From an uncultured Alphaproteobacteria bacterium (lineage in GTDB: Bacteria > Pseudomonadota > Alphaproteobacteria > MPNO01 > UBA2964), in contig CALIBP010000092.1 of assembly GCA_938048165.1 (NCBI GenBank), positions 1-39,935 of the forward strand: 39,935 nt of DNA. The letters run 5' to 3'. Each line of letters starts with the position of its first letter. Positions within the stretch are counted from its first letter, which is position 1. The translations under genes were made by a program, and so were the position numbers. Below the pieces are notes generated by a model. That model was not told the DNA's origin. It saw nothing but the letters and a program-made list of their open reading frames with translations, and made no database searches. This document shows, piece by piece, positions 1,365 through 34,727 of this stretch.

Positions 1365-3548
1365 TCAGACAGGCGCCGGATCGCAAAACCGTTTGAGAAC
1401 ATTTTCGGTGATTTTCGAAACATTATTGTCACAATCATTCCAGGTCATGGATGTTGGCCATGCAATGGACCCGGCAGACCAGACAGCGCCATTCCCCTGC
1501 GTGGCAAAAATCACCATATCCGCCCGTACAAGCCCATTCTGGCCGCCATCCAGCGCTCTGGTCGTGGTGATGAATTCCTCACCGCTTAAAAGCCCGCCTT
1601 TGTCTATTCCATGACTTGTGGCAACCACAATCGCATCATGCGGAGAGCCCAGATGAACATCAAACCTGTCGATTTCCAGGCCCACGGCACCGCCGCCGCG
1701 ATACCCGAAGTCACCGATTTTCTCATCATCAACACCGTCAAAGATAAAGCCGACCCTTTTGTCGAATGAAGCTGTTGTTCGCTTATAGTAGGTTGACCTT
1801 ACAAACAGGGTTGAACTGAAGCCGACCCCGACAAGGCTTTGCGGGGGCCGGCCACTGCTACGCCACAGACCGCCCGGCTCACCGGTGCTTGCCAGGTGAT
1901 GCTCCCCGGGCTCTCCCTCCCAGGTGCGGACACCGGAATTGCCGCGCCGGTTTTCCACGACGCCCGGCATATTTTCCGGCCACCCGATGCGCCAGTAAAA
2001 ACCGTTGCCACCAAGATAAAGATGCCGCCCACCATGTTCCTGAAATTCATGAACTGCATCCCACATCGGGGTTGAATAATATTCAGGATGCGAAGCCGTG
2101 ATGATCACACGATAGCGCGACAGCAATGCAGCGCCATGTTCATGAAGCTCTTTGTCGGTGGCAACTTCATATCTGAAATTCTTTGCTTCCAACCATTTGA
2201 TGATGTGCGTGTCATTCACATAATTGAAGGTATACAGGCCCGGTTTCATGTTCAGCATCGGGCGCCGTTCGCTGACATGGACAACTCCGGAATTGTCGCT
2301 GTGGGTGTCATAATGTGACAGGCCAAGCTCGCGATGTTCGTTCAGATACATTTCCTCTTCGCTGATGACCATCGGCGCTTCATAGAGGTTTTCGGTGTTG
2401 TGACTGTCGAACTTGATATGGGTGTTGGCATAGGACAGATAGGTTGCGGTCGGCGCGATAAACAGAATATCAGCCGCTTCCGGCTTGCCGGTGGTCTCTT
2501 TGCCAGAGTTTTGCTCAGGTCTTTCCGATACGAAAAACGCAACATCACTGGTGCATTGTGATGTGGTCATGCGGGCAATGTAATATCCCGATCTTGCGTC
2601 TGCCGGGATATTGATCTTCCTTGTGGTTTCCCAGTGGCAGTCTGTCAAATCATCATCATGGAAATGGATCGCCGAATACTGGTCCGGGTGATGAACCCAG
2701 CTTTCTGTATTGCCCTTCCACCGGTGGCCTGTTGCAGCACGCATTGGACCGTTTACCAGAATCAGATCGCACCCTTGCATGCCGATATCGCAGGCTGTAT
2801 TGCCGGATTGGTTCTGGCTGAAATCCCATTCGCAGATTGCCACTTTCTGTTGCCAGATTGCGGGGCTGTCAATCTTGCCGTTGAAATGATGTCTGGTACT
2901 GGAAAGGCGGGTGCCGGTTGCGTCTTTGTCCCCGGTTCCGCTGGCAGCCATGATCAGCGGCACATTATCTCCGGGCATCAGGTGTTTCCTGTCAAGGTCA
3001 CCCTCCGCCCTGTCGGTCTCATTCAACATCCCGGGCTTTATCTGTCTTTCATATGACAGGGACATCTTATGTGTCTGCAGGTTCACAGCCAGACAGACTT
3101 TAATCCATCGGCGCTCGAGAAGTGCGGTGCCACAGCAGACTTCATCGGTGCCATATTTCGCATACAGCCTGCCTTGCCGGTTGATCCCGATTTCCAGACC
3201 ATCCCACGACAGGACTGTTTGCAGCCCGCCATCCACACAAGTCGGCCACAGATAGGCGGTAAATTCAAATGGGATAGACCAATCGATTTCCGGTGTTTTC
3301 AGGCTCAAGGCATAGGAGCCTGCATTGATGGGCTGGTGGAAGATTTCAACATCCGGGTGGGCGCACCACTCCTGCGTTTCAAATTCGGCACCGGGGCCAT
3401 TGGGGTCTATGTCGGCGCAGATCACACGGAAAATTCCGATATCGCACGTGGCAGGCCCGTTACTTGATATCTTGAGCTCGGTTGTTCCGCCGGGATGAAC
3501 TGAAAGCGGCTGGCAATAACCAAGAATATCGGTGGGCCTACGCATCAT
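1365..3548 (-). CDS. N,N-dimethylformamidase-like amidase, large (beta) subunit
   Basis: This 727-residue protein resembles the large subunit of N,N-dimethylformamidase, which hydrolyses dimethylformamide to dimethylamine and formate using a mononuclear iron held by two Tyr and one Glu. The matching positions are all present: Tyr373 in the LSYANTH motif, Tyr413 in SHYDTHSDNSG and Glu489 in SHPEYYS, with spacings close to those of the characterised Paracoccus enzyme. The N-terminal half (about 90-240) looks like a LamG/concanavalin-type beta sandwich, and the C-terminal half (about 360-700) is the catalytic domain. It overlaps the small-subunit gene by 11 bases, so translation is probably coupled. 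It is the last gene of a five-gene minus-strand operon. The family is secure. The natural substrate is not, because many marine homologues have never been assayed and may act on other small N-substituted amides. Confidence 0.88.
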   Translation of the reverse strand: MMRRPTDILGYCQPLSVHPGGTTELKISSNGPATCDIGIFRVICADIDPNGPGAEFETQEWCAHPDVEIFHQPINAGSYALSLKTPEIDWSIPFEFTAYLWPTCVDGGLQTVLSWDGLEIGINRQGRLYAKYGTDEVCCGTALLERRWIKVCLAVNLQTHKMSLSYERQIKPGMLNETDRAEGDLDRKHLMPGDNVPLIMAASGTGDKDATGTRLSSTRHHFNGKIDSPAIWQQKVAICEWDFSQNQSGNTACDIGMQGCDLILVNGPMRAATGHRWKGNTESWVHHPDQYSAIHFHDDDLTDCHWETTRKINIPADARSGYYIARMTTSQCTSDVAFFVSERPEQNSGKETTGKPEAADILFIAPTATYLSYANTHIKFDSHNTENLYEAPMVISEEEMYLNEHRELGLSHYDTHSDNSGVVHVSERRPMLNMKPGLYTFNYVNDTHIIKWLEAKNFRYEVATDKELHEHGAALLSRYRVIITASHPEYYSTPMWDAVHEFQEHGGRHLYLGGNGFYWRIGWPENMPGVVENRRGNSGVRTWEGEPGEHHLASTGEPGGLWRSSGRPPQSLVGVGFSSTLFVRSTYYKRTTASFDKRVGFIFDGVDDEKIGDFGYRGGGAVGLEIDRFDVHLGSPHDAIVVATSHGIDKGGLLSGEEFITTTRALDGGQNGLVRADMVIFATQGNGAVWSAGSIAWPTSMTWNDCDNNVSKITENVLKRFCDPAPV

Positions 3549-3885
3549 GGTTGCTATCCAGAATGACGTCGTGGCCGGTCAAATCCTTCCACCGGCGTTT
3601 GAAAATGTCCCACTCAGCCTCGGCGATGGATGAATAGACTATGTTATCGACAATGGTTGGTGGAATGCCGCGTTTGCCGCTCAGGCGGCACAGGCGAAAG
3701 GACTCAAACGGTTTTTCCACCAGAAGGGCATAGCGGCCCTGCATGGGCGTGCAGCGCATTCTGTCGAGAATCTGCTGTAATTCGGTACTGTAGGGGCCGC
3801 GCGGGTTCATCTTGTATTCGCGCGCCAGATCCATGGATCGACCATCGAAACGATAGATTGCATTGTCTGCGTCATAAATAATCAT
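3538..3885 (-). CDS. N,N-dimethylformamidase-like amidase, small (alpha) subunit
   Basis: A 115-residue protein directly upstream of the large subunit and overlapping it by 11 bases. The pattern NPxG, then L-x-x-I/V-x-x-x-x-R-x-x-P-x-x-GRY followed by a short beta strand and a basic helix near the C-terminus, follows the small subunit of dimethylformamidase, which is usually about 130 residues. The small subunit packs against the large one and has no catalytic residues of its own. It is shorter at the N-terminus than the characterised protein. ATG at 3885-3883 is preceded by AGGG at a reasonable distance. Gene order and overlap support the assignment more than the sequence alone. Confidence 0.8.
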   Translation of the reverse strand: MIIYDADNAIYRFDGRSMDLAREYKMNPRGPYSTELQQILDRMRCTPMQGRYALLVEKPFESFRLCRLSGKRGIPPTIVDNIVYSSIAEAEWDIFKRRWKDLTGHDVILDSNHDA

Positions 3886-3926
3886 CTGCTATACGCCCTG
3901 ACAGGCATTACAAGCCTTTCCTGTGG

Positions 3927-5309
3927 TCAGTCTGTGGTCATGCCCGGTATGCGGAACATGGCCCCGCTATCAGGATACAGGAAACCCAGCACCTCCGGAA
4001 TGGCGCGTTCATCCATCGCCCCGTCTTTGTCAAAAGCCGTGATGATGCGCTCGGCCAGTTCAGGAATGATGATATTATCGGTAAAGATACGGAACTTGTC
4101 CTGCAGATCTGATCGTGACATCGGATTCAGAGGGTCGCCATGCGCATCGATGATGCATGTTTCATATGTGCCATCAGGTGTTTTGATCGTGACACCCGAA
4201 GGCGCTTTCTTGGGAAACATGGCTGTTAGATCGGGTTCGTGCCTGACTTTGATTCTGGCGGCCAGTTCCTGCACTGCCGGATCGTTGAAAAGCTCATCGG
4301 CGATAGGCATCAGTGCTTTGGGACCGTGAACCAGTGCCGCAGCGATGCAAAAAGGTACCGAGAATTGTGCTTCGGCCTGCGAATGCGGGGTAACCTTGTT
4401 ATCAAGCTCGAATGCACGCAAAAAGGTGGCGACGGTAACGTTGTTAATCTGGCTCACGGGTATTGTGTTTTCCGCCTGCAGCCTCAAAGCACCTTCGATT
4501 GCTGCATGTATCCAACGGCAGCATGCATAGGGTTTAAAGAACAGGCCGTCGATTGCCCATGAATGTCCAAGGTCTTCAACCAGTATGTCGGCATCATAAA
4601 GAATACCGTTATCAAAAGTGTCTGGATAACCTTTAAAACCTTCGCGCGCCAGCAAGGCCCCTGTGATGCCGGCATAGGTCGACCAGGCGATGCTTTCCTT
4701 GACGTCTGAACCGGCAAAGCCATGGAAAATGGCCGAGGCGTTTCTGGGGGCATGCTGTTCGGCAATCAGGATTGCCTCTGTCATCTTGGCAGCGCCGAAG
4801 CCATTTAATCTGGCAAATGTCGCGGCTGATCCCGTGCCACTCCAGCGCCCGCTGACTGTGGACTTATGATGTTCAGGGTTGCGCGCCAATGCGATGCGGA
4901 CAGCCGCTTCATAGCCAAGAATTATGCTGGTGAGAAATGTTCTGAAATCTGCATTTGCAGCTTCAGCTGCGGCAATGGCCGCACTGATCACAGCAACACC
5001 CGGGTGCCCGGCTGCCATGCGGTGCCCGTCGTCAATATCCAGCGCGGTTGCCGCCATTGCATTCACGCTGGCTGCGGTAACCGGATTGGTATGTTCATGG
5101 GTGAACCAGATGCCAGCCTTGCCGGGACCGGCAAACTGCATCAGGGCGCGGCGCATTGATTGATAACTGGTGGAATGAAGGCCGGCTATCGCAGCGCCAA
5201 GAACATCAAGCACGCAATCCATTGCCCGCGCATATAAACGCTCAGGGATATCATCTTGGGTGGTGGTGACAAGAAACCGCGAAAGCGTATCGACAGCGCG
5301 TTCAGACAT
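3927..5309 (-). CDS. MmgE/PrpD family protein
   Basis: 460 residues, the usual length for the MmgE/PrpD family (2-methylcitrate dehydratase PrpD, cis-aconitate decarboxylase, iminodisuccinate epimerase). The N-terminal helical domain starts with RFL..T.., then an LDVLGAAIAG segment. The conserved DIDDGHRMAAGHPG segment at about residues 92-105 provides the active-site Asp and His residues, and KPYACCRWIHAAIEG at about 270 is the second signature. The start ATG lies 8 bases inside the end of the upstream dehydrogenase gene, and 41 bases separate it from the dimethylformamidase small subunit. There is no citrate synthase or PrpB nearby, so a role in the methylcitrate cycle is unlikely. I infer a dehydratase, epimerase or isomerase acting on a carboxylic acid made in this pathway. 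Confidence 0.85.
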   Translation of the reverse strand: MSERAVDTLSRFLVTTTQDDIPERLYARAMDCVLDVLGAAIAGLHSTSYQSMRRALMQFAGPGKAGIWFTHEHTNPVTAASVNAMAATALDIDDGHRMAAGHPGVAVISAAIAAAEAANADFRTFLTSIILGYEAAVRIALARNPEHHKSTVSGRWSGTGSAATFARLNGFGAAKMTEAILIAEQHAPRNASAIFHGFAGSDVKESIAWSTYAGITGALLAREGFKGYPDTFDNGILYDADILVEDLGHSWAIDGLFFKPYACCRWIHAAIEGALRLQAENTIPVSQINNVTVATFLRAFELDNKVTPHSQAEAQFSVPFCIAAALVHGPKALMPIADELFNDPAVQELAARIKVRHEPDLTAMFPKKAPSGVTIKTPDGTYETCIIDAHGDPLNPMSRSDLQDKFRIFTDNIIIPELAERIITAFDKDGAMDERAIPEVLGFLYPDSGAMFRIPGMTTD

Positions 5310-6267
5310 GGCTGAAACGGCTGATGTGATCTTTCAGCAGCCTGATACCGGCTATCATCAGATTGTCGATTGACTGATCCGTGTACCATGCCGAATGCGG
5401 TGTCACGATGACATTGTCAAGCGATAGCAACGGATCATCAACGCGTGGCGGTTCCTGATGGAATACATCAAGGCAGGCGACACCTATGTGCCCGGATTGC
5501 AAACCCTGCAACAGCGCATCCTGATCAATGATGCCGCCACGGCTGCAATTAACCAACACAACTCCGGGTTTCATTTTCCGGATATGTTCAGTGGTGATGA
5601 AGTTTCCGGTCATATCATTCAGCGCCAGACTTGTCGAAAGCATGTCCGACTGACGCAAAACCTCATCAAGCGGCATCTGTTCAACAAACGAGGCAGGCGC
5701 GATCTGACTTCGGTTCCAGCCGATAACCCGGGCACCAAGCGCATGCGCAACACGGGCAGTCTGAAGCCCGATACCACCAAGTCCGATAATGCCAAAAACC
5801 GAACCACGAAATTCTTTCGTGCGGGTGAGCTGCCAATGCCCGTTGCGCACGGCCTTGTCCATCGCGGGCAATCTTTTCAACCCCGACATGGCAAGTGCAA
5901 CCGTATGTTCCGCAACAGCATGGTCGCAATAGCCCTGCACACCTTCAAAGGGAATGCCTGCCTCACGCGCATGATCTAGGTCGCCATGTGTGGCAATTCC
6001 CGTTGAAAGGTAAGCGATCGATTTCAGCTGCGGGCATGACTTCATCACATCGGCGGACATATATCCCATATAGACAAGCACGTGGCGGCGATCGCCTATG
6101 CGGCTGACAAGCTCGCTTTCGGACCGGACTTCACCATGGATCACCTCCATGCCGGGGCACAGATCGACCATCGCCGGCGTCAGTCGGTCGCTCAGGACCC
6201 CGTAACAGTCGATAAAGGCAGGTGTATCCGGCAACAGATTATCCCACGACCGAGAAGCTGCTCTCAC
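5302..6267 (-). CDS. D-isomer-specific 2-hydroxyacid dehydrogenase
   Basis: NAD(P)-dependent oxidoreductase of the D-2-hydroxyacid dehydrogenase family. It carries the Rossmann motif GLGGIG, the catalytic Arg in NCSRGGIID, the Glu in DVFHQEPP and the His in TPHSAW, which form the Arg-Glu-His triad of the family. The frame stays open up to 6381, but that longer form runs far into the oxidoreductase gene upstream. The GTG at 6267-6265 follows a GGGAAA-type ribosome site and gives 321 residues, the normal family length, so I chose it. It overlaps the upstream gene by 29 bases and the downstream MmgE/PrpD gene by 8. It probably interconverts a 2-keto and a D-2-hydroxy acid; the substrate is unknown. 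Confidence 0.82.
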   Translation of the reverse strand: MRAASRSWDNLLPDTPAFIDCYGVLSDRLTPAMVDLCPGMEVIHGEVRSESELVSRIGDRRHVLVYMGYMSADVMKSCPQLKSIAYLSTGIATHGDLDHAREAGIPFEGVQGYCDHAVAEHTVALAMSGLKRLPAMDKAVRNGHWQLTRTKEFRGSVFGIIGLGGIGLQTARVAHALGARVIGWNRSQIAPASFVEQMPLDEVLRQSDMLSTSLALNDMTGNFITTEHIRKMKPGVVLVNCSRGGIIDQDALLQGLQSGHIGVACLDVFHQEPPRVDDPLLSLDNVIVTPHSAWYTDQSIDNLMIAGIRLLKDHISRFSHV

Positions 6268-7540
6268 GGTTAATTTCCCGGTTGCGTGAGAAAAAGCGCA
6301 GATCCAGTTCATAGTCCATGTTTGGCAATGCAAAGCGCATGGGATCGTCGTCATGGTCGTTCCCGTCTTCGACATAGTCAATCAGGTCGGCCATCATCAT
6401 GCCCACAACCGGTGCGTTCTTGAATTGATTGCCACTTGTCCCAATCGCCATGTAGAAACCGCCAAGGCTGGATTTATCGTAAATGGGTATCCAGTCATCC
6501 GCGACATCATAGAGGTCGGCGATCCCCTGCACATTGTTGGGGATGCCCATCGACGGGAAGCGCTGCGCACCGCGAAGCGCCTGAAGCCTTGCCTGGTCGG
6601 TGACCGAGGTTTCATAATCGTCGGGATCAACCCATTCCAGCGGATCACAAGATGGCTCTTCACTGCCGATAAGAATTTTATTGCCGATTTCCGGCCGCCA
6701 GTAGCCACCGATATCGGCATCCGAACAGATATAGCCATTATTCTCAAAATCAAAGTCTGCCGGTGCCGGCACATGTGCGACCTCGACACGAAGCGCCTTG
6801 GTCTTGATATTCATCTCGTCTTCAACACCGGCCATGCGGTTGATCTTGAAGGAGTGAGGCCCGGCGGCATTGACCACAACCGGCGCCGTGAACTGCCCCT
6901 TGCCTTCGACCTCGACTCCCGTGACGCGGTCTCCGTCACTGGTGATGTCCGATACCGATGCGCCCATCAGAAATTCCGCACCATGCCTTTTCGCGGCTGC
7001 CTGAATGTTCTGCGTTGCCAGCCCCGGATCATTGATGAATCCGGCTTTCGGGAAAAACAGGACATAGCGCAACTCACCATTCTGGCTGCCGAAACCGGCA
7101 TCGCTGAGAGCCTTTGGCGGATGGAAATGGCCGGGATTCACTATGGGGAGCTGAGCCCGAAACTTGGAGGGTGTCCAGACTTCGTAAGGAATGCCGATTT
7201 GATTGGCAATCTCCTCCAGCTTGATCCCGTATTTATTATCCTCAAAACAGGTGTAGCAGCATCCGACTTCCCGGTAGCTCGCCAGATTGTCATCAGCGGC
7301 CGCGCCAAGATACCCTGTCCAGTCTTCCCAGAACGGGTAATTGGCCTTGGCCAGCGCAGCGCCATTCAAGGTTGAGTAATGGGTCCTGATGATAGCGCAA
7401 GAATTCGTCGTTGACCCGGCGCCTGCAGTGACATTCCTGTCTATGCAGAGAACCTTTTTCTTGGATTTTGCCATCTCATAGGCAATGGCGCATCCAATGA
7501 TGCCGGCGCCGATGACAATTGCATCATATGTTTGTGGCAT
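6239..7540 (-). CDS. FAD-dependent oxidoreductase, DAO (D-amino-acid oxidase) fold
   Basis: 433 residues from ATG at 7540-7538, which follows GGGG at a workable distance; an in-frame TTG at 7567 is less likely. The N-terminus has the dinucleotide-binding motif GAGIIGCAIAYEMA, then an acidic residue ending the second strand (CIDR) and a GSTTNSCAIIR segment typical of the DAO superfamily, which includes sarcosine oxidase, glycine oxidase and dimethylglycine dehydrogenase. The C-terminus has the expected GGFYMAIGTSGNQFKNAP FAD-contact segment. It is the first gene of the minus-strand operon and shares the divergent promoter with soxB. It probably oxidises an amino or N-methylamino acid. The exact substrate cannot be read from sequence. 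Confidence 0.85.
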   Translation of the reverse strand: MPQTYDAIVIGAGIIGCAIAYEMAKSKKKVLCIDRNVTAGAGSTTNSCAIIRTHYSTLNGAALAKANYPFWEDWTGYLGAAADDNLASYREVGCCYTCFEDNKYGIKLEEIANQIGIPYEVWTPSKFRAQLPIVNPGHFHPPKALSDAGFGSQNGELRYVLFFPKAGFINDPGLATQNIQAAAKRHGAEFLMGASVSDITSDGDRVTGVEVEGKGQFTAPVVVNAAGPHSFKINRMAGVEDEMNIKTKALRVEVAHVPAPADFDFENNGYICSDADIGGYWRPEIGNKILIGSEEPSCDPLEWVDPDDYETSVTDQARLQALRGAQRFPSMGIPNNVQGIADLYDVADDWIPIYDKSSLGGFYMAIGTSGNQFKNAPVVGMMMADLIDYVEDGNDHDDDPMRFALPNMDYELDLRFFSRNREINRESSFSVVG

Positions 7541-7676
7541 GATGTTCAACCCCGAAATATATTGCAAATATATTTAATCAATATAATAGTAATCGAATAC
7601 ACGCAAGCCACAAATAAACATCCCATTGGCGTCACGTTTTTCGCATGGCTACCCTGCTTTTCAGAGACCGCTTCCC
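7541..7676. promoter_or_regulatory. Divergent promoter region between amidase and sox operons
   Basis: This 136-base stretch separates the first genes of two diverging operons and is markedly AT-rich around 7555-7590. It contains the near-palindrome AAATATATTGCAAATATATTT at 7555-7575 and a TATAAT at 7582-7587 that could be the -10 element for soxB, about 90 bases before its ATG. A TTGCAA at 7562-7567 sits too close (14 bases) to be a canonical -35. The TTGCAA plus ATATAT words recur in the other divergent promoter at 18500-18532, so a shared regulator is possible. Confidence 0.4.
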
Positions 7677-8936
7677 ATGACTGATTATTCGATTCTGAGC
7701 CTGGCAAAAAATGCGCTGAACGGGCAGGCCGGATGGGCTCCAGCCTGGCGAAAGCCGGACCCGAAACCCGAATATGACGTTGTCATTGTCGGCGGTGGCG
7801 GGCATGGGCTTGCAACCGCGCATTATCTTGCCAAAGATCATGGCATCACAAATGTGGCGGTGCTGGAGAAAAACCTCATAGGTTCCGGCAATGTCGGCCG
7901 GAATACAACGCTGGTTCGCTCCAACTACATGCTGGACAGGACACTGCCATTCTACGAGCATTCGCTCAAGCTGTGGGAAGGCCTGTCGCATGACCTGAAC
8001 TACAATGTCATGTTTTCCTCGCGCGGCATTATAAATCTTGCCCATTCGCCGGGTCAGCTGGATGTATTCAGGCGCCGCGCCAACTCGATGCTGTTGAATG
8101 GTGTCAAAGCCGAGATTCTGAGCGCTGCACAAATTGCTGAGAAAGTTCCCGCCCTTGATGTCAGTGATGCGGCGCGTTTCCCGGTTCTCGGCGGTCTTTA
8201 TCAGGCCAGAGGCGGTACCGCCCGGCATGATGCCGTTGCCTGGGGTTTCGCGCGAAGCGCTGACCGTCGGGGCGTTGATATCATCGAGCAATGCGAGGTA
8301 ACAGGATTCCTGAAAAAGGATCGCCGGATTGTTGGGGTGTCCACATCCAGAGGTGAGATCAGAGCAAAGAAAATCGCAGTCGTTGTGGCCGGCAGCTCAA
8401 GCCATGTTCTGCAACAAGCCGGCCTGAACAATCTGCCAATTGAAAGCCATGTTCTTCAGGCCTTTGTCAGCGAAGGGCTTAAACCTGTTCTTGATGTCGC
8501 CATAACCTTTGGTGCCGGTCACCTTTATATCTCGCAGTCCGACAAGGGCGGGCTGGTGTTCGGCGGTGACCTTGATGGCTATAATTCCTATGCGCAGCGC
8601 GGGAACCTGCCAGTTGCAGAGGATGTGGCAACCGCGCTTCTGGCAATGTTTCCAGCCTTCGCCAAAGTCCGCGTGCTTCGCAGCTGGGGCGGCATTATGG
8701 ATATGTCCATGGATGGACAGCCCATTATTGATGTCGGGCCTGTTCCGGGTCTCTATATAAATTGCGGGTGGTGCTATGAGGGGTTCAAGGCGACCCCTGC
8801 ATCCGGGTACACCTTTGCCTGGACCATCGCAAATGACGCACCGCATGAACTGAATGCTCCGTTCAGCCTGTCACGTTTTCAAAATGGTTACGTCCTTGAT
8901 GAAAAAGGCCGTGGGCCGTTTCCCGGGCACCACTAG
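7677..8936 (+). CDS. soxB: Sarcosine oxidase, beta subunit family
   Basis: 419 residues from ATG at 7677; an in-frame TTG at 7626 is rejected because the family's N-terminal YSILSLAKNAL segment starts right after this ATG. The subunit carries the site that demethylates sarcosine to glycine and formaldehyde with O2. Visible features are the LSLAKNAL start, a GWAPAWR stretch, the FAD motif VVIVGGGGHGLATAHYLA at about 35-52, GRNTTLVRSNY at about 75-84 and ARHDAVAWG at about 182-190. In heterotetrameric sarcosine oxidases the His of that last segment (His184 here) covalently binds FMN. It is the first gene of soxBDAG. N-methylglutamate dehydrogenase subunit MgdA is a homologue, but its partners GmaS and MgsABC are absent here. 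Confidence 0.9.
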   Translation: MTDYSILSLAKNALNGQAGWAPAWRKPDPKPEYDVVIVGGGGHGLATAHYLAKDHGITNVAVLEKNLIGSGNVGRNTTLVRSNYMLDRTLPFYEHSLKLWEGLSHDLNYNVMFSSRGIINLAHSPGQLDVFRRRANSMLLNGVKAEILSAAQIAEKVPALDVSDAARFPVLGGLYQARGGTARHDAVAWGFARSADRRGVDIIEQCEVTGFLKKDRRIVGVSTSRGEIRAKKIAVVVAGSSSHVLQQAGLNNLPIESHVLQAFVSEGLKPVLDVAITFGAGHLYISQSDKGGLVFGGDLDGYNSYAQRGNLPVAEDVATALLAMFPAFAKVRVLRSWGGIMDMSMDGQPIIDVGPVPGLYINCGWCYEGFKATPASGYTFAWTIANDAPHELNAPFSLSRFQNGYVLDEKGRGPFPGHH

Positions 8937-8947
8937 GAGTTGGGTTT

Positions 8948-9220
8948 ATGATCATTGATTGCCCATGTTGCGGCCCCCGGCCGGTGAGTGAGTTTTCCTA
9001 TATCGGTGATGCCGAGGTGGAAAAACCTGATATGCAAGCCCCGGTGGCAGACTGGGTAGAAGCGGTCTACACACGCACCAACCCGCGCGGCACGCATCTG
9101 GAACATTGGCAGCATCTTCATGGATGTCGCCAGTTCCTGAAGCTGCAACGCGATACACTCACCCATGAAATATTTGCGGTCGAACTTGCAGGTGTATACG
9201 CAAGCGGAGCAGGCGAATGA
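8948..9220 (+). CDS. soxD: Sarcosine oxidase, delta subunit family
   Basis: A 90-residue zinc-binding accessory subunit of the heterotetrameric oxidase. The start MIIDCPCCG has the Cys pair, and HGCRQF near residue 60 has the His and Cys expected to complete the zinc site. An AGGAG at 8936-8940 lies at a good distance before ATG 8948. The gene begins 11 bases after soxB and overlaps soxA by 4 bases (ATGA), so the subunits are made in a coupled way. The small size, the Cys/His pattern and the position between the beta and alpha genes leave little doubt. Confidence 0.93.
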   Translation: MIIDCPCCGPRPVSEFSYIGDAEVEKPDMQAPVADWVEAVYTRTNPRGTHLEHWQHLHGCRQFLKLQRDTLTHEIFAVELAGVYASGAGE

Positions 9221-12189
9221 CATCATTTCGCATCGACAAGCCGTCAGTTGTGGATTTTGAAACACCTGTAAACTTCACTTTTGACGGGCATTCCTATCGC
9301 GGCTTTGCCGGTGATACGGTGGCATCGGCGTTACTTGCAAATGGTGTTTATCTGTTTGGCAGGAGCTTCAAATATCATCAGCCAAGAGGTGTTATGGGTG
9401 CGCATGTTGAAGAGGCAAATGCACTGATAACCATTGGCAGGGGCGCACATGCCGAGCCAAACCTGCAAGCGACCACGATACCGGTTGCTGAAGGTATGGA
9501 AGTGTTCAGCCAGAATCGGTGGCCGTCACTCAAGCTCGATTTGCTTTCCATCAACCAGCTGGCGGCACCATTACTGTCAGCCGGTTTTTACTACAAGACT
9601 TTCATGGGCCCCACGAAAAGATCATGGATGTTGTACGAACCGTTCATCCGGCGTGCCGCCGGTCTTGGCGCGGTGTCAACCTCGGCTGATGATCAGGCCT
9701 ATGAAAAGGACCATCGCTTCTGTGATGTTCTGATAATCGGCGGCGGTGTAACCGGTATAGCTGCCGGCCTTGCCGCAGCGCGTTCCGGGTTGCGGGTCAT
9801 GCTTGTCGATGACCGCAATGTCTGGGGTGGCCAGATGGCCGGTGTTGACGATGATCTGTCCGGGCAGCCACTTGATCAATGGATCGGTCATTCCATCAGG
9901 GAATTACAGGAACTTGGCGCAGAACTGCTTTCCCGCACAACCGTGTTTGGTGTTTATGACGGGCATGTCCATGGCGCGGTGCAGCGGCTGGCAGATGTAA
10001 GCAGCCATGATGGCGTCAAACGTCCCTTGCAGCGGTTTCTCAAAATTGTTGCAAAGCATTCGATCCTCGCTACAGGCGCGTTTGAAAACCCGATGCTTTT
10101 CAAGAATAATTCGCTGCCCGGTGTGATGCTGGCTGATACAGCACGGCATTTCATGGACCGTTTTTCAGTCGCATGCGGTAAACAGATTGTAATCTATACC
10201 AATAATGACAGTGCGTATGATGCTGCCCGCAGGCTGGCAGAAGCAGGGCTGAATGTTACAACCCTGATTGACACTCGCCCGTCGGTATCGGCCGCGTGTC
10301 AGTCACTCGCCAGACATATTGGTGCTTCCCATCTTGTCGGGTGGCAGGTGGAAAAGGCCCATGGACGTCATAAGGTCAAGGCCGTCAGCGTCTGCAAGAT
10401 CGATGATCGGCGGCAGAAACAACGGATCAGCAGTGATTGTCTCGCTGTATCTGGCGGCTGGAATCCGGTTGTGCATCTGGCCAGCCATATGGGCATGGCG
10501 CCAGTCTATAGTGAACCGATGGGGGCGTTTATTGTTGATCCCGACAGCCTTCCTTGCCATTGCCATGTGGCAGGTCCCGTAGCCGGATCTCTTGATCTGC
10601 CGTCATGTGTGAATGGCGGGTTTGCCGCTGGTATAAAAGTGGCGCAGCAGCTTGGTTCAACGCCGCCTGATCCTATTGAAGCAACTGCCATGCACGGCTT
10701 TATTGGTGACTGGCCGATGAAAGCCGATGTGGAAACATTGTCCGAAAAGGTCATGCTCGATTTTCAGAATGATGTGACCCTCGGTGACATCAAACTCGCC
10801 GTGGTCGAGGGATATTCGGCTACCGAGCATCTGAAGCGTTACACGACGCTTGGCATGGGAACCGATCAGGGGCGCACATCAAATATCAATGCCATATCGC
10901 TTCTCACCCAGCTGACCGGTCAGCAGATAGAAAACATACGCCCCACCAGATTTCGGCCGCCATTCACACCGATAACGCTTGGCGCGCTTGTGGGTCACCA
11001 TGTTGGTGACCACGCACAGCCAACACGCCTGACACCAATGCATGACTGGCACGCGGCGCAGGGCGCTATGATGGTTCCGGTAGGTTTGTGGTGGCGGCCA
11101 AGAGCCTATCTGAAACCCGGTGAGACATTGCGTGAGGCCTATATCAGGGAAGCAGGGAATGTCCGTGAAAATGTGGGGATATGCGATGTGTCCACACTTG
11201 GCAAGATCGCCGTGCAGGGACCTGACGCAGGGGTTTTTCTGGACCGTGTCTATACCAATAATTTTGCCACACTGCCGGTCGGAAAGGCACGCTACGGTCT
11301 GATGCTTCGCGATGACGGAATGGTTCTTGATGATGGTACAAGCTGGCGGCTTGGTGAAAACGACTATCTCATGACCACCACAACCGGCGGGGCCGGTGCT
11401 GTAATGCAGCATCTCGAAAGGCTGCATAATCTTTATTGGCCCGACCTTCGGGTCAGCTTCGTGTCGGTGACCGGGCAATGGGCTGGCATGTCGGTCGCCG
11501 GGCCAAAGTCACGCCAGGTTCTTGGCAAGGCATTCAGCGGCACCGACTTCTCCGATGCGGCACTTCCAATCATGGGGGTCATGTCTATACAGACCGCATC
11601 CGGCACCATACTGGTCGCGCGCCTTTCATTTTCCGGCGAGCTTGCCTATGAGGTTTTCTGCCCTGCTTGCATGGGCACGGAAATCTGGTGCGATTTGTTA
11701 TCGCATGGTGCTGATTCTGGCATTCAGCCCTACGGCACCGAAGCGCTTGGTGCGCTTCGCATCGAAAAGGGGCATGTCGCAGGCGGTGAGCTAGATGGCC
11801 GGGTATCGCCCTATAACCTGCGCCTCGACGGCATGCTGTCGAAAAAGAAATGGTTTTTTGGCAAGCCGTTGCTGGAGCGGGACGGGCTTTATGGTGATGA
11901 TCAATATCGACTGGTCGGTCTGATCAGTGAGGACAAGCAGCCGCTTCAGGCCGGCGCTCATGTGGTTTTTGGAGACAAGGCCAGCCCGGGCCCGTCACAA
12001 GGCTGGGTGTCTTCGGTGACATACAGCCCGTCACTTGACGAGGAAATCGGCTTGGCGCTGGTGAAGAAGCAGGCGCTTGAGAAAGACACCGGCATGTATG
12101 CTGCAAACCCGGTTGCCGGAATTCACCGCAAGGTGCGGATAGTGTCGCATCATTTTCTTGACCCTGAGGGTCATCGCATGCGGCTGTGA
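9217..12189 (+). CDS. soxA: Sarcosine oxidase, alpha subunit family
   Basis: 990 residues, the usual size of the alpha subunit. Domain order: an N-terminal ferredoxin-like module (about 10-90, containing RSFKYHQPRG but lacking iron-sulfur Cys residues, as in the family), then a pyridine-nucleotide/FAD Rossmann region with GGGVTG at 175-180 that binds NAD+, then a GcvT-like tetrahydrofolate domain from about 600 to the end, beginning near TPMHDWH and including TLGKIAVQGPDA and the GELAYE segment. The folate domain captures the formaldehyde unit as 5,10-methylene-tetrahydrofolate. It overlaps soxD by 4 bases and is followed 10 bases later by soxG. All segments are intact with no frameshift. Confidence 0.94.
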   Translation: MTSFRIDKPSVVDFETPVNFTFDGHSYRGFAGDTVASALLANGVYLFGRSFKYHQPRGVMGAHVEEANALITIGRGAHAEPNLQATTIPVAEGMEVFSQNRWPSLKLDLLSINQLAAPLLSAGFYYKTFMGPTKRSWMLYEPFIRRAAGLGAVSTSADDQAYEKDHRFCDVLIIGGGVTGIAAGLAAARSGLRVMLVDDRNVWGGQMAGVDDDLSGQPLDQWIGHSIRELQELGAELLSRTTVFGVYDGHVHGAVQRLADVSSHDGVKRPLQRFLKIVAKHSILATGAFENPMLFKNNSLPGVMLADTARHFMDRFSVACGKQIVIYTNNDSAYDAARRLAEAGLNVTTLIDTRPSVSAACQSLARHIGASHLVGWQVEKAHGRHKVKAVSVCKIDDRRQKQRISSDCLAVSGGWNPVVHLASHMGMAPVYSEPMGAFIVDPDSLPCHCHVAGPVAGSLDLPSCVNGGFAAGIKVAQQLGSTPPDPIEATAMHGFIGDWPMKADVETLSEKVMLDFQNDVTLGDIKLAVVEGYSATEHLKRYTTLGMGTDQGRTSNINAISLLTQLTGQQIENIRPTRFRPPFTPITLGALVGHHVGDHAQPTRLTPMHDWHAAQGAMMVPVGLWWRPRAYLKPGETLREAYIREAGNVRENVGICDVSTLGKIAVQGPDAGVFLDRVYTNNFATLPVGKARYGLMLRDDGMVLDDGTSWRLGENDYLMTTTTGGAGAVMQHLERLHNLYWPDLRVSFVSVTGQWAGMSVAGPKSRQVLGKAFSGTDFSDAALPIMGVMSIQTASGTILVARLSFSGELAYEVFCPACMGTEIWCDLLSHGADSGIQPYGTEALGALRIEKGHVAGGELDGRVSPYNLRLDGMLSKKKWFFGKPLLERDGLYGDDQYRLVGLISEDKQPLQAGAHVVFGDKASPGPSQGWVSSVTYSPSLDEEIGLALVKKQALEKDTGMYAANPVAGIHRKVRIVSHHFLDPEGHRMRL

Positions 12190-12199
12190 GGAGATGGTG

Positions 12200-12787
12200 A
12201 TGTCGGCAGCAGAACCCAGGAAGCCTGTGACACCCCTGACAGCAGAGCCCGGCAAGGCGGAACTGCAGCAGATCGGCAACAGTGATGTTGCGGCGCTGCG
12301 GCTTCCACCTGGCCGGTTCCATGTCGTTACTGCATGGCCTGAAAGTCTTGATCTGTGCAGCAAGGCGTTGTCGCGCCTCGGGCTTGGGGTGCCGGAAAAG
12401 GTTGGTGATGCCATTGTCACAACTGAGGGCAGCGCTATGCGGGTCGCGCCGGGAAGGTGGTTTTTCGATGGTCTGGATCCAACGCCGGCAGCAGACGGGT
12501 CTGAAAAATTTGCCGTCACCGACCTGTCGGATGGCACGGCGATGTTCAGCATCCATGGCGAAAAGGCCACACGACTTGCACAAAAGCTGATCATGGTTGA
12601 TCTATCGGGCGACACAGCTGCACCTCCGAGGGTAATGCAAACCGGCAGTTCGCATGGTATCGGGCTGACAATGCTCTGGTCAGAACGCAACCAGTTCAAG
12701 CTTTTCTGCGAAAAGTCATATGAAAGAGATTTCTGGCACATGCTGCAGGCCGAACTTGCCGAATTCACCATTGATGAAACAGCGTGA
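12200..12787 (+). CDS. soxG: Sarcosine oxidase, gamma subunit family
   Basis: 195 residues from the ATG at 12200, chosen because GAGGAG at 12188-12193 lies 6 bases upstream; the ATG at 12194 is too close and an earlier in-frame TTG at 12158 lies inside soxA. The gamma subunit is a small GcvT/YgfZ-like protein that stabilises the complex. Visible segments are the LRLPPGRFHV strand, an APGRWFFDG turn around residue 90 and DLSDGTAMFSIHG, all in the order expected for SoxG. It is poorly conserved in general, so position as the fourth gene of soxBDAG is an important part of the call. Confidence 0.88.
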   Translation: MSAAEPRKPVTPLTAEPGKAELQQIGNSDVAALRLPPGRFHVVTAWPESLDLCSKALSRLGLGVPEKVGDAIVTTEGSAMRVAPGRWFFDGLDPTPAADGSEKFAVTDLSDGTAMFSIHGEKATRLAQKLIMVDLSGDTAAPPRVMQTGSSHGIGLTMLWSERNQFKLFCEKSYERDFWHMLQAELAEFTIDETA

Positions 12788-12813: not shown

Positions 12814-13497
12814 ATGCAAATGTATGAAGTTGAGTTCCCGCAATGGGCGATAGATCGGAATATCAGGAATCGTGGCCGTGAGCATGCTGTGATTTCGATC
12901 GAGCCTGCAAAGACGGCACTGATCATTATCGATATTCAGAATGCCTGGGTAGAGCCGGGATACAGTCCTCTCTATATCGAGGCTGCGAAGGATATCGTTC
13001 CCAATATCAACCGGCTGTCAAACGTCATGCGCGCGATCGGCGGCCATGTGGTGTTTACCCAGCACTGCTGGGGTGAATGGCCTGAATTTTTTGAGATGTT
13101 TTCAAATCAGGCGTTTCATGATGAGGTCATCGAGAAAACGCAGGTGGGTACGCACGGTCATGCCTTATGGCCGGAACTTGACGTTGCGGATAATGACATC
13201 ATGGTCGTCAAAACACGACCAAGCGCCTTTATTCAGGGATCATCGGACATGGATGCGGTGTTAAAAAGCAAGGGCATCGACACGGTGATCATCACAGGCA
13301 CGCTTACAAATGCCTGTTGCGAATCCTCGGCACGCGATGCTGCAGCCCTGAATTACCGCGTTATATTCGCTGCCGATGCAACGGCGACAAGAAACGCGCA
13401 GGAGCATAACTCAACGCTTGTCAACCTTGGTCAGTATGTTGCGGATATCCGCTTTACCGATGAGTTGGCAGGCTTTCTTGAAGGTCAGGCAAGCTGA
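12814..13497 (+). CDS. Isochorismatase-fold cysteine amidohydrolase
   Basis: 227 residues with the Asp-Lys-Cys catalytic triad of the isochorismatase-like hydrolase superfamily: Asp40 in IIIDIQNAW, Lys133 in VVKTRPSAF and a Cys at 168 in TNACCESSARDA. Members include nicotinamidase, ureidoacrylate amidohydrolase, biuret hydrolase and N-carbamoylsarcosine amidohydrolase. It starts 26 bases after soxG on the same strand and is probably co-transcribed with it. Because N-carbamoylsarcosine amidohydrolase makes sarcosine, the substrate of the preceding oxidase, and a hydantoinase pair lies in the same block, that activity is an attractive guess. The second half of the Cys motif (TNxCCES) is the generic form rather than the AAGCVRHT seen in the Arthrobacter enzyme, so the substrate is open. 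Confidence 0.8.
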   Translation: MQMYEVEFPQWAIDRNIRNRGREHAVISIEPAKTALIIIDIQNAWVEPGYSPLYIEAAKDIVPNINRLSNVMRAIGGHVVFTQHCWGEWPEFFEMFSNQAFHDEVIEKTQVGTHGHALWPELDVADNDIMVVKTRPSAFIQGSSDMDAVLKSKGIDTVIITGTLTNACCESSARDAAALNYRVIFAADATATRNAQEHNSTLVNLGQYVADIRFTDELAGFLEGQAS

Positions 13498-13591: not shown

Positions 13592-14671
13592 CTATGACTG
13601 ATTTTCAGCTTCACGCTGTGGCAGGACAAAGACAGCGCTTGCATCTATGTCCAACATCACCATGTCGCCTTCAGATGGCTCGTGATTGCTTTTGTTCGTT
13701 GCCGCCGTAACGCTCAGTGTGCTGCCATCCTGACTTTCAACTGTATATTCGATCAGGCTGCCAAAATATTGTTTGTCGATGACCTTGGCCTTTGCCCCGG
13801 TGCCTTTCGGTGGCTGCAGGCTGATGCGCTCGGGGCGTATCAGGACTTCGGGCTGTTTACTGTCCATATGCGATGGTGCATCGATCTCCAGCGTCGCACC
13901 TGCAACCTGGATTGTCACCGTCTTGCCGCCTGACTTAACAACGCTGGCTGGCAGAATGTTGGACTGGCCCATGAACTCAGCAATGAATTTGTTTGCCGGC
14001 GTCCGGTAGACTTCCTCGGGCGTACCAATCTGGTTAACGTGACCATGATTCATGATGCAGATACGGTCTGACATGCTCATGGCTTCATCCTGATCGTGGG
14101 TCACAAATATTGTGGTGATGCCAAGCTCGATTTGCAGCGCCCTCAGCTCGGCCCGCATATAGTCACGAAGCTGCTTGTCGAGCGCGCCAAACGGCTCATC
14201 AAGAAGCAGAACATTTGGCCGCAGGATCAGTGATCGTGCCAGCGCCACACGTTGCTGCTGGCCGCCTGACAGTTCACGCGGCATCCTTTCAACAAGCCCC
14301 TCAAGCTGCACCAGCTTCAGCGCTTCCTTCAGTCTTGTTTGCTGCTCAGCTTTGCCGACTTTTGCCATTTTCAGGCCGAAGGTGACATTCTCGCCAACAG
14401 TCATATGAGGGAACAATGCGTAATTCTGGAACACCAAACCAATGGAACGTTTTTCCGGAAGAACACCCGTAATATCGGTATCACCGATGAAAATGCGCCC
14501 GGAAGTCGGTTCAACAAAACCGCTGACCATGCGCAGGCTGGTCGTCTTGCCACAACCTGACGGGCCAAGCAATGTGAGAAATTCACCATCATTTACCGAC
14601 AGATTGAGGTCGGCAACAGCACAGGTCTCACCATAATACCGAGAGACATTCTCGAACGTAAGTTTGCTCAT
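13592..14671 (-). CDS. PotA-type ABC transporter ATP-binding protein
   Basis: 359 residues. Walker A GPSGCGKTT at 36-44, the Q-loop in VFQNYALFP at about 80-88, signature LSGGQ at 134-138, Walker B LLLDEP at 155-160 and the switch His192 in FVTHDQ are all present. The C-terminal third (from about 240) is a TOBE-type regulatory domain. This is the architecture of PotA/FbpC/UgpC-class ATPases. It overlaps the permease gene by 4 bases (ATGA) and is the last gene of the importer operon. Together with the two permeases and the exported binding protein it makes a complete spermidine/putrescine-class importer. Such systems also carry other small cationic or N-substituted solutes, and the context favours an N-methylated amine or related compound. 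Confidence 0.9.
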   Translation of the reverse strand: MSKLTFENVSRYYGETCAVADLNLSVNDGEFLTLLGPSGCGKTTSLRMVSGFVEPTSGRIFIGDTDITGVLPEKRSIGLVFQNYALFPHMTVGENVTFGLKMAKVGKAEQQTRLKEALKLVQLEGLVERMPRELSGGQQQRVALARSLILRPNVLLLDEPFGALDKQLRDYMRAELRALQIELGITTIFVTHDQDEAMSMSDRICIMNHGHVNQIGTPEEVYRTPANKFIAEFMGQSNILPASVVKSGGKTVTIQVAGATLEIDAPSHMDSKQPEVLIRPERISLQPPKGTGAKAKVIDKQYFGSLIEYTVESQDGSTLSVTAATNKSNHEPSEGDMVMLDIDASAVFVLPQREAENQS

Positions 14672-15501
14672 TTTATGATTTTTCCAAAGGAGACAAGCTG
14701 GCCTCTCGACATCAGTAATAAGGTTAACAATGCCGTCAGGGCTAGCATCAGCGTTGAGATGGAGGCAATCGACGGTTCCAGTTGAAACATCAGCGTCGAA
14801 TATATCTGAATGGGAAGGGTCTGGTTAAAAGTCGCCAGAAAATAGGTAACGATGAATTCATCAAAAGAGATGATGAAACTGAAGATAAAGGCACCGATCA
14901 GGCCGGATTTGATCAAAGGGATGGTGATGAAGAAAATCGTTTTGAAATAGCTGGCACCAAGAATTTGTGCAGCTTCTTCCAGATTGCGATCAAGGGTCTG
15001 CAAGCTGGCGCCAATGGTGATGATGGCATAAGGAATTGTGATTGTAGTGTGCGCTACAACATAAAACCAAAGGCTGTCCGTGGCATTCAGCGCGAAGCCT
15101 TCGGATGTGTCAAGGAACAGTCCTATGCGGAACAGCGCCATACCAAGAACGATATGCGGCAAGACCATCGGTGCGATCAAATAGGAAAACACAGCCTGTT
15201 TACCCCTGAAATCGCTACGATCCAGCCCCAGCGCTGCCATGCCGCCGACAATCATCGAAAGCGGGGCCACAATACTTGCAACAATAAGTGAGTTCATGAA
15301 TGAGTTCTGCCAGTCATCATCGGTCATGACATAGGCATACCATCTGACACCGTAGGATTCCGGTGGAAAGCCCATATGGTTCTCGTTGGTAAAGCTCTGG
15401 ATTACCACGATAACCAGCGGCGCAAAGATGAAGATGAAGATCAATGCGTTGATAATGAAAAGCAACTTCGAAGAGGCTCGGTTTTTAGTGCTTGCTGCCA
15501 T
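14668..15501 (-). CDS. PotC-type ABC transporter permease
   Basis: 277 residues with about six hydrophobic membrane segments. The EAA-type loop that contacts the ATPase is visible at about residue 170 (NLEEAAQILGASYFKTI, ending FITIPL). The N-terminal cytoplasmic tail is basic, the first membrane helix is very hydrophobic (LLFIINALIFIFIFAP), and a periplasmic segment containing GFPPESYGVRWY follows; that F-x-x-x-x-Y-G-x-R-W-Y pattern is typical of PotC-like permeases. The gene abuts the PotB-type gene directly and overlaps the PotA-type gene by 4 bases. Confidence 0.9.
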   Translation of the reverse strand: MAASTKNRASSKLLFIINALIFIFIFAPLVIVVIQSFTNENHMGFPPESYGVRWYAYVMTDDDWQNSFMNSLIVASIVAPLSMIVGGMAALGLDRSDFRGKQAVFSYLIAPMVLPHIVLGMALFRIGLFLDTSEGFALNATDSLWFYVVAHTTITIPYAIITIGASLQTLDRNLEEAAQILGASYFKTIFFITIPLIKSGLIGAFIFSFIISFDEFIVTYFLATFNQTLPIQIYSTLMFQLEPSIASISTLMLALTALLTLLLMSRGQLVSFGKIIK

Positions 15502-16371
15502 TCAGACTTTCACACTTCGTTGCAGGAGACGTGAGATATAAACGGTAAACAGGATCGTGATCAGAAGCATCACCGAAAACGCTGATGCCGTGGGCCAGTT
15601 ATATCGGTCACGCACCAGACCGGTGATAATCATGGGAATTGTGACAACCTTGTTGCCACCCATGATAACCGGGGTGACGTAGAGCCCCATCGACAGAATG
15701 AAGACTAGCGTGCAACCCGCAATCACGCCTGGCAGGCTGAGCGGCCAGGTTATGTTGCGAAACAGCTGCATGCTGGAAGCGCCGAGATTTCGCGCGCTTT
15801 CCTCGATTGAGGGATTGATTGCCGACAGGGATGCGTAAATAGGCAGCACCATGAATGGCAGATATACATGCACGGTGCCCAGAACAACGCCAAACACATT
15901 ATTCATCAGCGGCAGACCGGCAAAGCGCGAGATAAGACCCATATCGCGCAAAACATCGTTCAACCCGATATAATCAGCGAACTGATTGATGATGCCCTGA
16001 TTGCCAAGCACCAGCATCCACGCCGAATTACGTACGATGATGCTCGTCAGCAAAGGTGATATCACACAGAACAGAATTATGTTCTTCATGAACGGTTGTA
16101 CCCTGCGCATCAGGATAGCGACCGGGAAGCTCAGGATCAGGCAAAAGAAGGTGATATAAAGCGAGATGAAAAAGGTATCAAAAAAGACGCGTAAATAAGT
16201 AGGCTCAAAGAATTTGATATAGCCGTCCAGATGGAAACCAAGCGTGGTTATGCTCTTGTCAAACCGGCCGAAGCTCAATACCAGAAGAACAACCAACGGC
16301 GCTGTAAAGGTTATAAGATAAAGAACAAGGGCGGGAAGCAATAACGTCATGCTTCTTTTATTGGCTGTCAT
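15502..16371 (-). CDS. PotB-type ABC transporter permease
   Basis: 289 residues from ATG at 16371-16369. The open frame extends to an ATG at 16434, but that codon lies inside a strong hairpin, and the added 21 residues carry no family feature, so I chose the later start, which follows a GGCAGGG ribosome site. About six membrane segments are visible, and the EAA loop reads SIEESARNLGASSMQLF followed by ITWPLSLPG near residue 190. PotB-class permeases pair with PotC-class ones in the same heterodimer. The ATG of the downstream permease follows immediately. Confidence 0.88.
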   Translation of the reverse strand: MTANKRSMTLLLPALVLYLITFTAPLVVLLVLSFGRFDKSITTLGFHLDGYIKFFEPTYLRVFFDTFFISLYITFFCLILSFPVAILMRRVQPFMKNIILFCVISPLLTSIIVRNSAWMLVLGNQGIINQFADYIGLNDVLRDMGLISRFAGLPLMNNVFGVVLGTVHVYLPFMVLPIYASLSAINPSIEESARNLGASSMQLFRNITWPLSLPGVIAGCTLVFILSMGLYVTPVIMGGNKVVTIPMIITGLVRDRYNWPTASAFSVMLLITILFTVYISRLLQRSVKV

Positions 16372-16412
16372 CGCTGCCCTGCCTGAAAAATAATCTTGTC
16401 TGTAATTTAAAA

Positions 16413-16440
16413 CAGCTGATGGCGTTGCCGCCATCAGCTG
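16413..16440 (-). terminator. Hairpin between binding-protein and permease genes
   Basis: A perfect 12-base inverted repeat (16413-16424 and 16429-16440, arms CAGCTGATGGCG/CGCCATCAGCTG) encloses a 4-base loop. Read on the minus strand it is followed by TTTTAAATT, the layout of an intrinsic terminator. It sits just after the PotD-type gene and before the PotB-type gene. It probably acts as a partial terminator or as an mRNA-stabilising stem, so that more binding protein than permease is made. Confidence 0.75.
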
Positions 16441-16458
16441 GAAAGTGAAGGTTCAGAT

Positions 16459-22802: not shown

Positions 22803-22804
22803 CA

Positions 22805-29535: not shown

Positions 29536-29658
29536 GGTCTGGTCCTTGATAGGCATTGTGCGTGATGATTGAAGGGCCCTGATGGCAGGCCTGTCAACGA
29601 AAAGCGGTGTCGTTGTGACAAGCTGAATGGTCACGCCGCCACGAAAGGGCTTTACAAA

Positions 29659-29676
29659 TTTGCATACGTATTCAAA
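29659..29676. promoter_or_regulatory. Probable LacI-family operator, 18-bp palindrome
   Basis: TTTGCATACGTATTCAAA matches its own reverse complement in 8 of 9 base pairs and has a central CG step, the usual form of LacI/PurR-family operators. It lies in the 294-base region between the divergent SnoaL gene (starting at 29535) and the binding-protein gene (starting near 29830), where one site could control both directions. The natural candidate to bind it is the LacI-type protein encoded at 37845-38882 in the same operon. Confidence 0.65.
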
Positions 29677-29829
29677 GGTTGTCCACAACAGGAATCCCGC
29701 TTCAGGAAAATCCGCTCTGACCGGACACTGGGGCATGATGGGTGCCTGTGGGGCTTGGTGCCCGTTCATGCAGGGGCCCGACACCGTCATAACGACAACG
29801 TCACAACATTGAGTTCTAGGAGGAACATG

Positions 29830-31065: not shown

Positions 31066-31080
31066 GCCTGACATCCTTGC

Positions 31081-31107
31081 GACCGGGAGCGCGCCGCGCT
31101 CTCGGTC
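31081..31107 (+). terminator. Hairpin between binding-protein and permease genes
   Basis: A 12-base stem with one G-U pair (31081-31092 and 31096-31107) and a GCC loop begins 16 bases after the stop of the binding-protein gene, followed by CATTTCT. Placement is the same as the hairpin of the PotD-type operon at 16413-16440, consistent with partial termination or stabilisation that gives an excess of binding protein. Confidence 0.6.
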
Positions 31108-31172
31108 CATTTCTCAACCAATAGCCTTTATTATTCATCCGCTTCATTGGCCCGCTTCATTGGACTAGCCGC

Positions 31173-32204: not shown

Positions 32205-32213
32205 GAGGGGCGC

Positions 32214-33086: not shown

Positions 33087-33097
33087 GGGGGCGTGAT

Positions 33098-34177: not shown

Positions 34178-34179
34178 TC

Positions 34180-34716: not shown

Positions 34717-34727
34717 CGGAGCTATTC

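Follow-up and report, generated by a model that had tools for sequence, protein, structure and literature searches.

The DMFase family and the locus under study

Two structurally solved enzymes are among the closest described counterparts of the locus reported here, namely the Paracoccus N,N-dimethylformamidase (DMFase; Protein Data Bank (PDB) entries 6LVB/6LVV), in which mutants revealed H519, N547 and E657 as well as the metal ligands to be essential (PMC7686228), and the N-acetyl-(R)-beta-phenylalanine acylase (8HUY, 8I59, 8I5A). In Paracoccus aminophilus, pAMI6 carries dmm, mgs/gmaS and mgd, the mau genes are chromosomal, and another dmfA-like locus, located on pAMI5, is unlinked to the use of N,N-dimethylformamide (DMF) (PMC4543880). 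Given the precedents of the acylase and the pAMI5 locus, the general idea of family members that do not act on DMF is not new. The present analysis concerns a DMFase-family amidase encoded on a 39,935-nt stretch of an uncultured Alphaproteobacteria bacterium (contig CALIBP010000092.1, assembly GCA_938048165.1), referred to as the window, to which all coordinates apply. The genome is 68 % complete, which limits genome-wide negative results such as those for DmmA and GmaS below. Five minus-strand genes occupy positions 1365-7540 and are transcribed in the order flavin adenine dinucleotide (FAD) enzyme, D-2-hydroxyacid dehydrogenase, MmgE/PrpD protein, small subunit (Sm) and large subunit (Lg), as an earlier note on this DNA had described; Pfam and NCBIfam matches as well as the coordinates bear out these names and their order (Table 1). 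With a probability that we put at roughly 55 %, the enzyme hydrolyses amides with the aid of Fe(III) and is encoded in an acquired island that serves the import and degradation of an amino compound bearing an N-acyl or N-alkyl group, in the latter case probably N-methyl.

Table 1. Positions of the five-gene operon and of neighbouring features in the window, with the evidence for each.
Feature	Position	Strand	Evidence or remark
Lg, DMFase-family large subunit, 727 aa	1365..3548	-	Pfam DMFA2_C 1e-85; PDB 6LVB, 8HUY; fold; catalytic residues
Sm, DMFase-family small subunit, 115 aa	3538..3885	-	profile match and predicted fold to 6lvb_B
MmgE/PrpD family protein	3927..5309	-	Pfam MmgE_PrpD_N/C; nearest solved structure IDS epimerase, 4e-26
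D-2-hydroxyacid dehydrogenase	5302..~6234	-	Pfam 2-Hacid_dh_C 3e-51; TTG at 6234 the likely start
DAO-type FAD oxidoreductase, first gene of the operon	6239..7540	-	Pfam DAO 1e-44
Divergent promoter region, amidase operon/SoxBDAG	7541..7676		sequence, also in L038
SoxB	7677..8936	+	TIGR01373 687 bits / TIGR01372 1159 bits for operon
SoxD	8948..9220	+	part of four-subunit N-methyl-amino-acid dehydrogenase/oxidase
SoxA	9217..12189	+	part of four-subunit N-methyl-amino-acid dehydrogenase/oxidase
SoxG	12158..12787	+	part of four-subunit N-methyl-amino-acid dehydrogenase/oxidase
Isochorismatase-family hydrolase, downstream of SoxG	12814..13497	+	Pfam 9e-39; relatives include RutB and N-carbamoylsarcosine amidohydrolase
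Polyamine-type importer: ATPase, two permeases, PotD-like solute-binding protein (16459-17535)	13592..17535	-	profile matches
HyuA/HyuB hydantoinase-oxoprolinase-type pair	20763..24466	+	Pfam 8e-90, 9e-184

Amidase subunits, active site and phylogeny

Among solved structures, Lg matches the acylase best (8HUY/8I5A, about 1e-104), followed by DMFase (6LVB, 2e-97). The structure prediction that the earlier note had proposed for the large subunit was run with AlphaFold2 (predicted local distance difference test, pLDDT, 86.5) and gave Z scores of 52.0 to the Paracoccus-type DMFase 6lvb_A (706 residues, root-mean-square deviation 2.0 Å, 33 % identity in the structural alignment) and 49.5 to 8huy (35 % identity). 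Together with the Pfam DMFA2_C match, the fold match to 6lvb_A assigns to Lg the Ig-like, pentraxin-like and ThuA-like catalytic domains of the DMFase family. Sm is marginal by single-sequence search (E 0.048); a 26-sequence profile matches 6lvb_B at 4e-10, and the predicted fold has Z scores of 11.2 to 6lvv_B and 10.8 to 6lvb_B. Sm lies directly upstream of Lg, an arrangement kept in most relatives examined, so that gene order, profile and fold matches all confirm the previous reading of both subunits being present in the right order.

Residue equivalences were derived from a phmmer alignment with the DMFase sequence, and the pocket was compared by sequence positions. In this alignment, the DMFase iron ligands Y399/Y440/E521 correspond to Y373/Y413/E489 in the window and the catalytic residues H519/N547/E657 to H487/N515/E625, all six being invariant in 40 homologues. 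The iron ligands are hence intact, as had been noted before, and the expectation that the enzyme should be active gains support from the complete retention of every residue important in the Paracoccus mutagenesis. Furthermore, DMFase Phe693, by which the adjacent subunit narrows the pocket, has its counterpart in Phe659, a position at which the acylase, otherwise alike in its catalytic set, carries Ser. The loop preceding this Phe differs (SVEHSVVYTVIPDDKAF in the window vs SHGIDKGGLLSGEEF in DMFase) and follows a pattern, ATxD/ATSH...GG...EE, that is common to the clade of the window protein. In a tree of 43 large-subunit sequences, Lg falls into an 11-row clade (Shimodaira-Hasegawa-like approximate likelihood ratio test, SH-aLRT, 100) from which DMFase and the acylase are both absent: it does not group with the proven DMFases, nor with the solved acylase, which belongs to a separate 5-row clade (SH-aLRT 100). 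Judged by homology, fold, residues and subunit pairing, Sm and Lg constitute an ordinary, intact DMFase-family amidohydrolase in a clade without assigned substrate, and by analogy with the Paracoccus enzyme the metal would be Fe(III) and the chemistry amide hydrolysis.

Each of the eight clade relatives whose surroundings could be read has ATP-binding cassette (ABC) importer genes nearby. These importers are of the dipeptide type in Variovorax, Agrobacterium larrymoorei, Ferrovibrio and one Rhizobiales genome, and of the polyamine type beside two further relatives (G207, G304); the Pseudoroseomonas member has a substrate-binding protein nearby and, like the Variovorax member, an adjacent class III aminotransferase. 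The Variovorax, A. larrymoorei, Ferrovibrio and Pseudoroseomonas loci (L048-L051, L047/L069) share with the window the clade, the directly upstream Sm gene and the adjacent ABC importers. However, their importers are of the dipeptide type, class III aminotransferases or SDRs stand in place of the FAD enzyme, hydroxyacid dehydrogenase and MmgE/PrpD genes, and identities amount to 40-44 %. Elsewhere in the family, three related genomes (L064 9650-16695, L063 2689-9889, L065 9614-14534) carry one small-subunit gene and, after it, a tandem array of two or three genes for large subunits. In addition, metagenome-assembled genomes (MAGs) labelled Latescibacterota/Gemmatimonadota (L041-L045) contain near-identical DMFase-family genes (end branches of ~0.03 or less), each with a 2-hydroxyacid dehydrogenase ~1 kb downstream; such near-identity would reflect either inter-phylum transfer or a binning error.

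The operon, the SoxBDAG genes and the acquired island

Ka/Ks values against the relative genome L038 are 0.11 for Lg, 0.08 for Sm and 0.18 for MmgE/PrpD; these genes are therefore under purifying selection and kept for function. The D-2-hydroxyacid dehydrogenase keeps the family Arg, Glu and His in its SRGG, HQEP and TPHS motifs. As the 5' extension of its open reading frame carries a TAG in L038, its start must lie downstream of this position and is probably the TTG.

The SoxBDAG operon (7677..12787, +) is transcribed divergently from the amidase operon. In S. meliloti and R. etli, its best matches, annotated "sarcosine oxidase", adjoin genes of the mgs and gmaS types. In a tree, the window SoxBDAG is sister to the clade containing N-methylglutamate dehydrogenase (NMGDH, MgdABCD; bootstrap 100/SH-aLRT 99) on a long separate branch of 1.05 and stands apart from operons with glyA/sdaA-type neighbours. 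It probably belongs with the NMGDH-type enzymes of methylamine oxidation and not with classical sarcosine oxidase. The NMGDH operons of Sinorhizobium pSymB, Rhizobium etli p42e and Paracoccus aminophilus pAMI6 likewise encode a SoxBDAG-type four-subunit enzyme (SoxB 60-65 % identical), but differ from the window in this branch separation and in having mgs/gmaS genes nearby, whereas no mgsABC/gmaS genes were found within the window. The intervening promoter region contains a perfect 9-nt inverted repeat (AAATATATT-N3-AATATATTT, 7555-7575), which is kept in L038 and may possibly serve as an operator; a search for further copies of the palindrome in the window returned none that was convincing.

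Beyond these two operons, a MAG labelled Rhodobiaceae (L038/G407) is collinear with the window from position 1358 to at least 23182 (~21.8 kb) at 92-93 % nucleotide identity. Within this block, the five genes and SoxBDAG are accompanied by HyuAB, the isochorismatase-family hydrolase, the polyamine-type ABC importer and genes for a flavoprotein, a DinB protein and an alpha/beta hydrolase; HyuA is collinear and 96 % identical in L038, and HyuB 98.6 % over 138 aa before the contig ends. The collinearity starts 7 nt past the Lg stop, the Lg, MmgE/PrpD and FAD genes are absent from eight other genomes of the same genus at the thresholds used, and G+C shifts from 50-56 % over approximately the first 27 kb of the window to 58-60 % beyond. 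The collinear block, the absence from congeners and the G+C shift argue for horizontal acquisition of an island whose left edge lies immediately beyond the Lg gene. The island would span at least ~22 kb and carries genes for transport and amino-compound breakdown.

At this left edge, the translation of 1155-1589 looks, on visual inspection, like the C-terminal portion of a tyrosine recombinase, but at most represents a remnant, as Pfam gave no match; the L038 flank differs and appears pseudoazurin-like by eye. The isochorismatase-family hydrolase together with HyuAB would, by analogy, recall the route from N-methylhydantoin via N-carbamoylsarcosine to sarcosine. Further downstream, at 28492-37081, several SnoaL-like genes surround another ABC importer, this one of the sugar type, together with a histidinol-dehydrogenase-like gene; with 58-60 % G+C, this region is unlike the island.

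The FAD and MmgE/PrpD genes in other genomes

Orthologues of the FAD enzyme, nearly all at 45-55 % identity, occur in 32 of 385 genomes of the class (~8 %), the window's included. At 12 of the 20 loci inspected, the gene adjoins a DMGDH-like demethylase, MttB is near at five, and SoxBDA is also present at one; for the eight loci without a DMGDH-like neighbour, a common neighbour family was sought and not found. These neighbours point to a role of the FAD gene in N-methyl amine oxidation. At one locus (L116 5233-12831), MttB, DMGDH-like, FAD and MmgE/PrpD genes (the latter 29 % identical to the window's) lie close together.

Broad conservation of MmgE/PrpD next to DMFase genes was looked for and not found: matches at E 1e-60 or better are confined to five of the 385 genomes (again including the window's), on contigs other than those with DMFase hits, and a search of plasmids with the DNA block from MmgE to the FAD gene gave no match. 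Compared with the six catalytic residues of IDS epimerase listed in PMC12290011 (H85, D88, H99, H150, K198 and K266), the window protein has T88, D91, H102, S157, V203 (with Lys at 204) and K259 at the aligned positions, i. e., three of six are kept, and the residue pattern expected of a 1,4-dicarboxylate isomerase/dehydratase was not found. Proteins of pTiS4, Mesorhizobium, Pelagibacterium and R. sullae belong to the same subfamily lacking three of the six. The pTiS4 cluster (L128) combines HyuAB, a polyamine-type importer, an MmgE/PrpD protein of this subfamily, an amidohydrolase and an FAD oxidoreductase. Its amidohydrolase, however, is of the N-formylglutamate family and not a DMFase, and its proteins are 31-42 % identical; the cluster is a parallel assemblage in which a different amidohydrolase takes the part of the amidase.

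Proposed pathway and alternative explanations

In the pathway that we propose, the substrate would be taken up by the polyamine-type ABC system and its C-N bond opened by the amidase, with Fe(III) on Tyr373/Tyr413/Glu489 activating water, Glu625 acting as base, Asn515 stabilising the oxyanion and His487 assisting. The isochorismatase-family hydrolase and HyuAB would possibly do the same for related forms with a ureido, lactam or hydantoin group. Oxidation of the amine product, N-methyl or secondary, would fall to the FAD enzyme and the NMGDH-like SoxBDAG, and the acid skeleton would be processed by MmgE/PrpD and the 2-hydroxyacid dehydrogenase. Both the order of steps and the substrate are inferred. 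The earlier note had proposed a natural N-alkyl amide bearing a carboxylic acid: the N-alkyl (probably N-methyl) compound is kept as a candidate and widened to N-acyl compounds, and an acidic group is plausible from the MmgE/PrpD and dehydrogenase annotations, but the dicarboxylate argument is not directly transferable to an MmgE/PrpD protein without three of the six IDS-epimerase residues. Homarine catabolism was also considered as the pathway and dropped, no supporting paper having been found in a literature search.

The same note was right that no dimethylamine or methylamine dehydrogenase gene stands beside the amidase, although it overlooked the adjacent SoxBDAG operon; its conclusion that DMF is not the substrate is likely correct, but the reason given, the absence of amine genes, fails. 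On pAMI2 of P. aminophilus no amine-oxidation gene is present, though its DMFase is needed for growth on DMF. Methylobacterium pLVM1, whose DMFase is 100 % identical to the solved one in a catalytic-domain segment, has none by name, most pLVM1 genes being annotated as hypothetical. As these DMFase loci are also without them, the absence does not discriminate. A better case is made by the clade of Lg, which lies apart from true DMFases, and by the importers near its relatives; DMF as physiological substrate is hence unlikely. We regard it as quite improbable that the amidase hydrolyses small formamides (DMF, N-methylformamide), with the adjoining NMGDH-like enzyme oxidising the methylated amine that is set free, even though neither the catalytic residues nor the pocket Phe have been lost, DMFase itself favours N-methylformamide by catalytic efficiency, proven DMFase loci likewise stand apart from amine genes, and an NMGDH-like operon lies next door. 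Besides the different clade and pre-Phe loop, the window amidase differs from the Paracoccus system in that no LuxR-type DmfR regulator gene lies upstream and in its position in a large catabolic island. Moreover, no dmmA homologue was detected and nothing scored above the family cut-off for GmaS in the incomplete genome. DMF is, in addition, a modern industrial chemical.

An N-acyl-(beta-)amino-acid acylase like the N-acetyl-(R)-beta-phenylalanine enzyme seems rather unlikely: the solved acylase is the best PDB match of Lg by a small margin, and class III aminotransferases adjoin two clade members, but it belongs to another clade, lacks the Phe, and the window operon encodes no class III aminotransferase. 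Literature searches returned no paper that connects DMFase to gene clusters or to N-acyl amino acids, and none on the beta-phenylalanine acylase. It is likewise conceivable, if improbable, that the amidase and the FAD/SoxBDAG enzymes belong to two unrelated pathways that came to share an operon by accident when the island was put together. The absence of a DMFase gene beside the FAD orthologue at all 20 inspected loci and the restriction of the five-gene set to two sister genomes would fit such an accident, whereas the tight packing (11-nt overlap of the Sm gene with the Lg start, 8-nt overlap of the MmgE/PrpD and dehydrogenase genes), the promoter region common to both operons and a full gene order that is kept and under selection speak against it.

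The lack of a DMFase gene beside the FAD orthologues and the restriction of the five-gene set to two genomes also weigh against an amino-compound island as proposed here. The earlier note had named co-occurrence of the five genes across genomes as a check, and their not being conserved together as grounds for giving up its reading; they were found joined only in L038, so that beyond this close relative conservation is largely lacking and the operon could be a recent assortment. Additionally, the MmgE/PrpD catalytic residues are divergent by alignment, clade relatives may act on different substrates, as their importer types and accessory enzymes differ, and the Phe693 that constricts the DMFase pocket has a retained counterpart in Phe659.

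Significance

Many DMFase-family genes in databases are named N,N-dimethylformamidase, yet few are known to act on DMF, and missing neighbouring amine genes cannot decide whether a homologue does. More speculatively, and with considerable doubt, the locus may represent an undescribed route for an environmentally common N-acylated/N-methylated amino-dicarboxylate, in which the iron amidase, an MmgE/PrpD protein whose active site is altered, a DAO-type demethylase and an NMGDH-like complex would work in series; if true, MmgE/PrpD would catalyse a reaction new to its superfamily. With its intact catalytic residues, consistent importers and compact operon, the clade offers a tractable case for the natural substrates of a 2-Tyr/1-carboxylate iron amidase.

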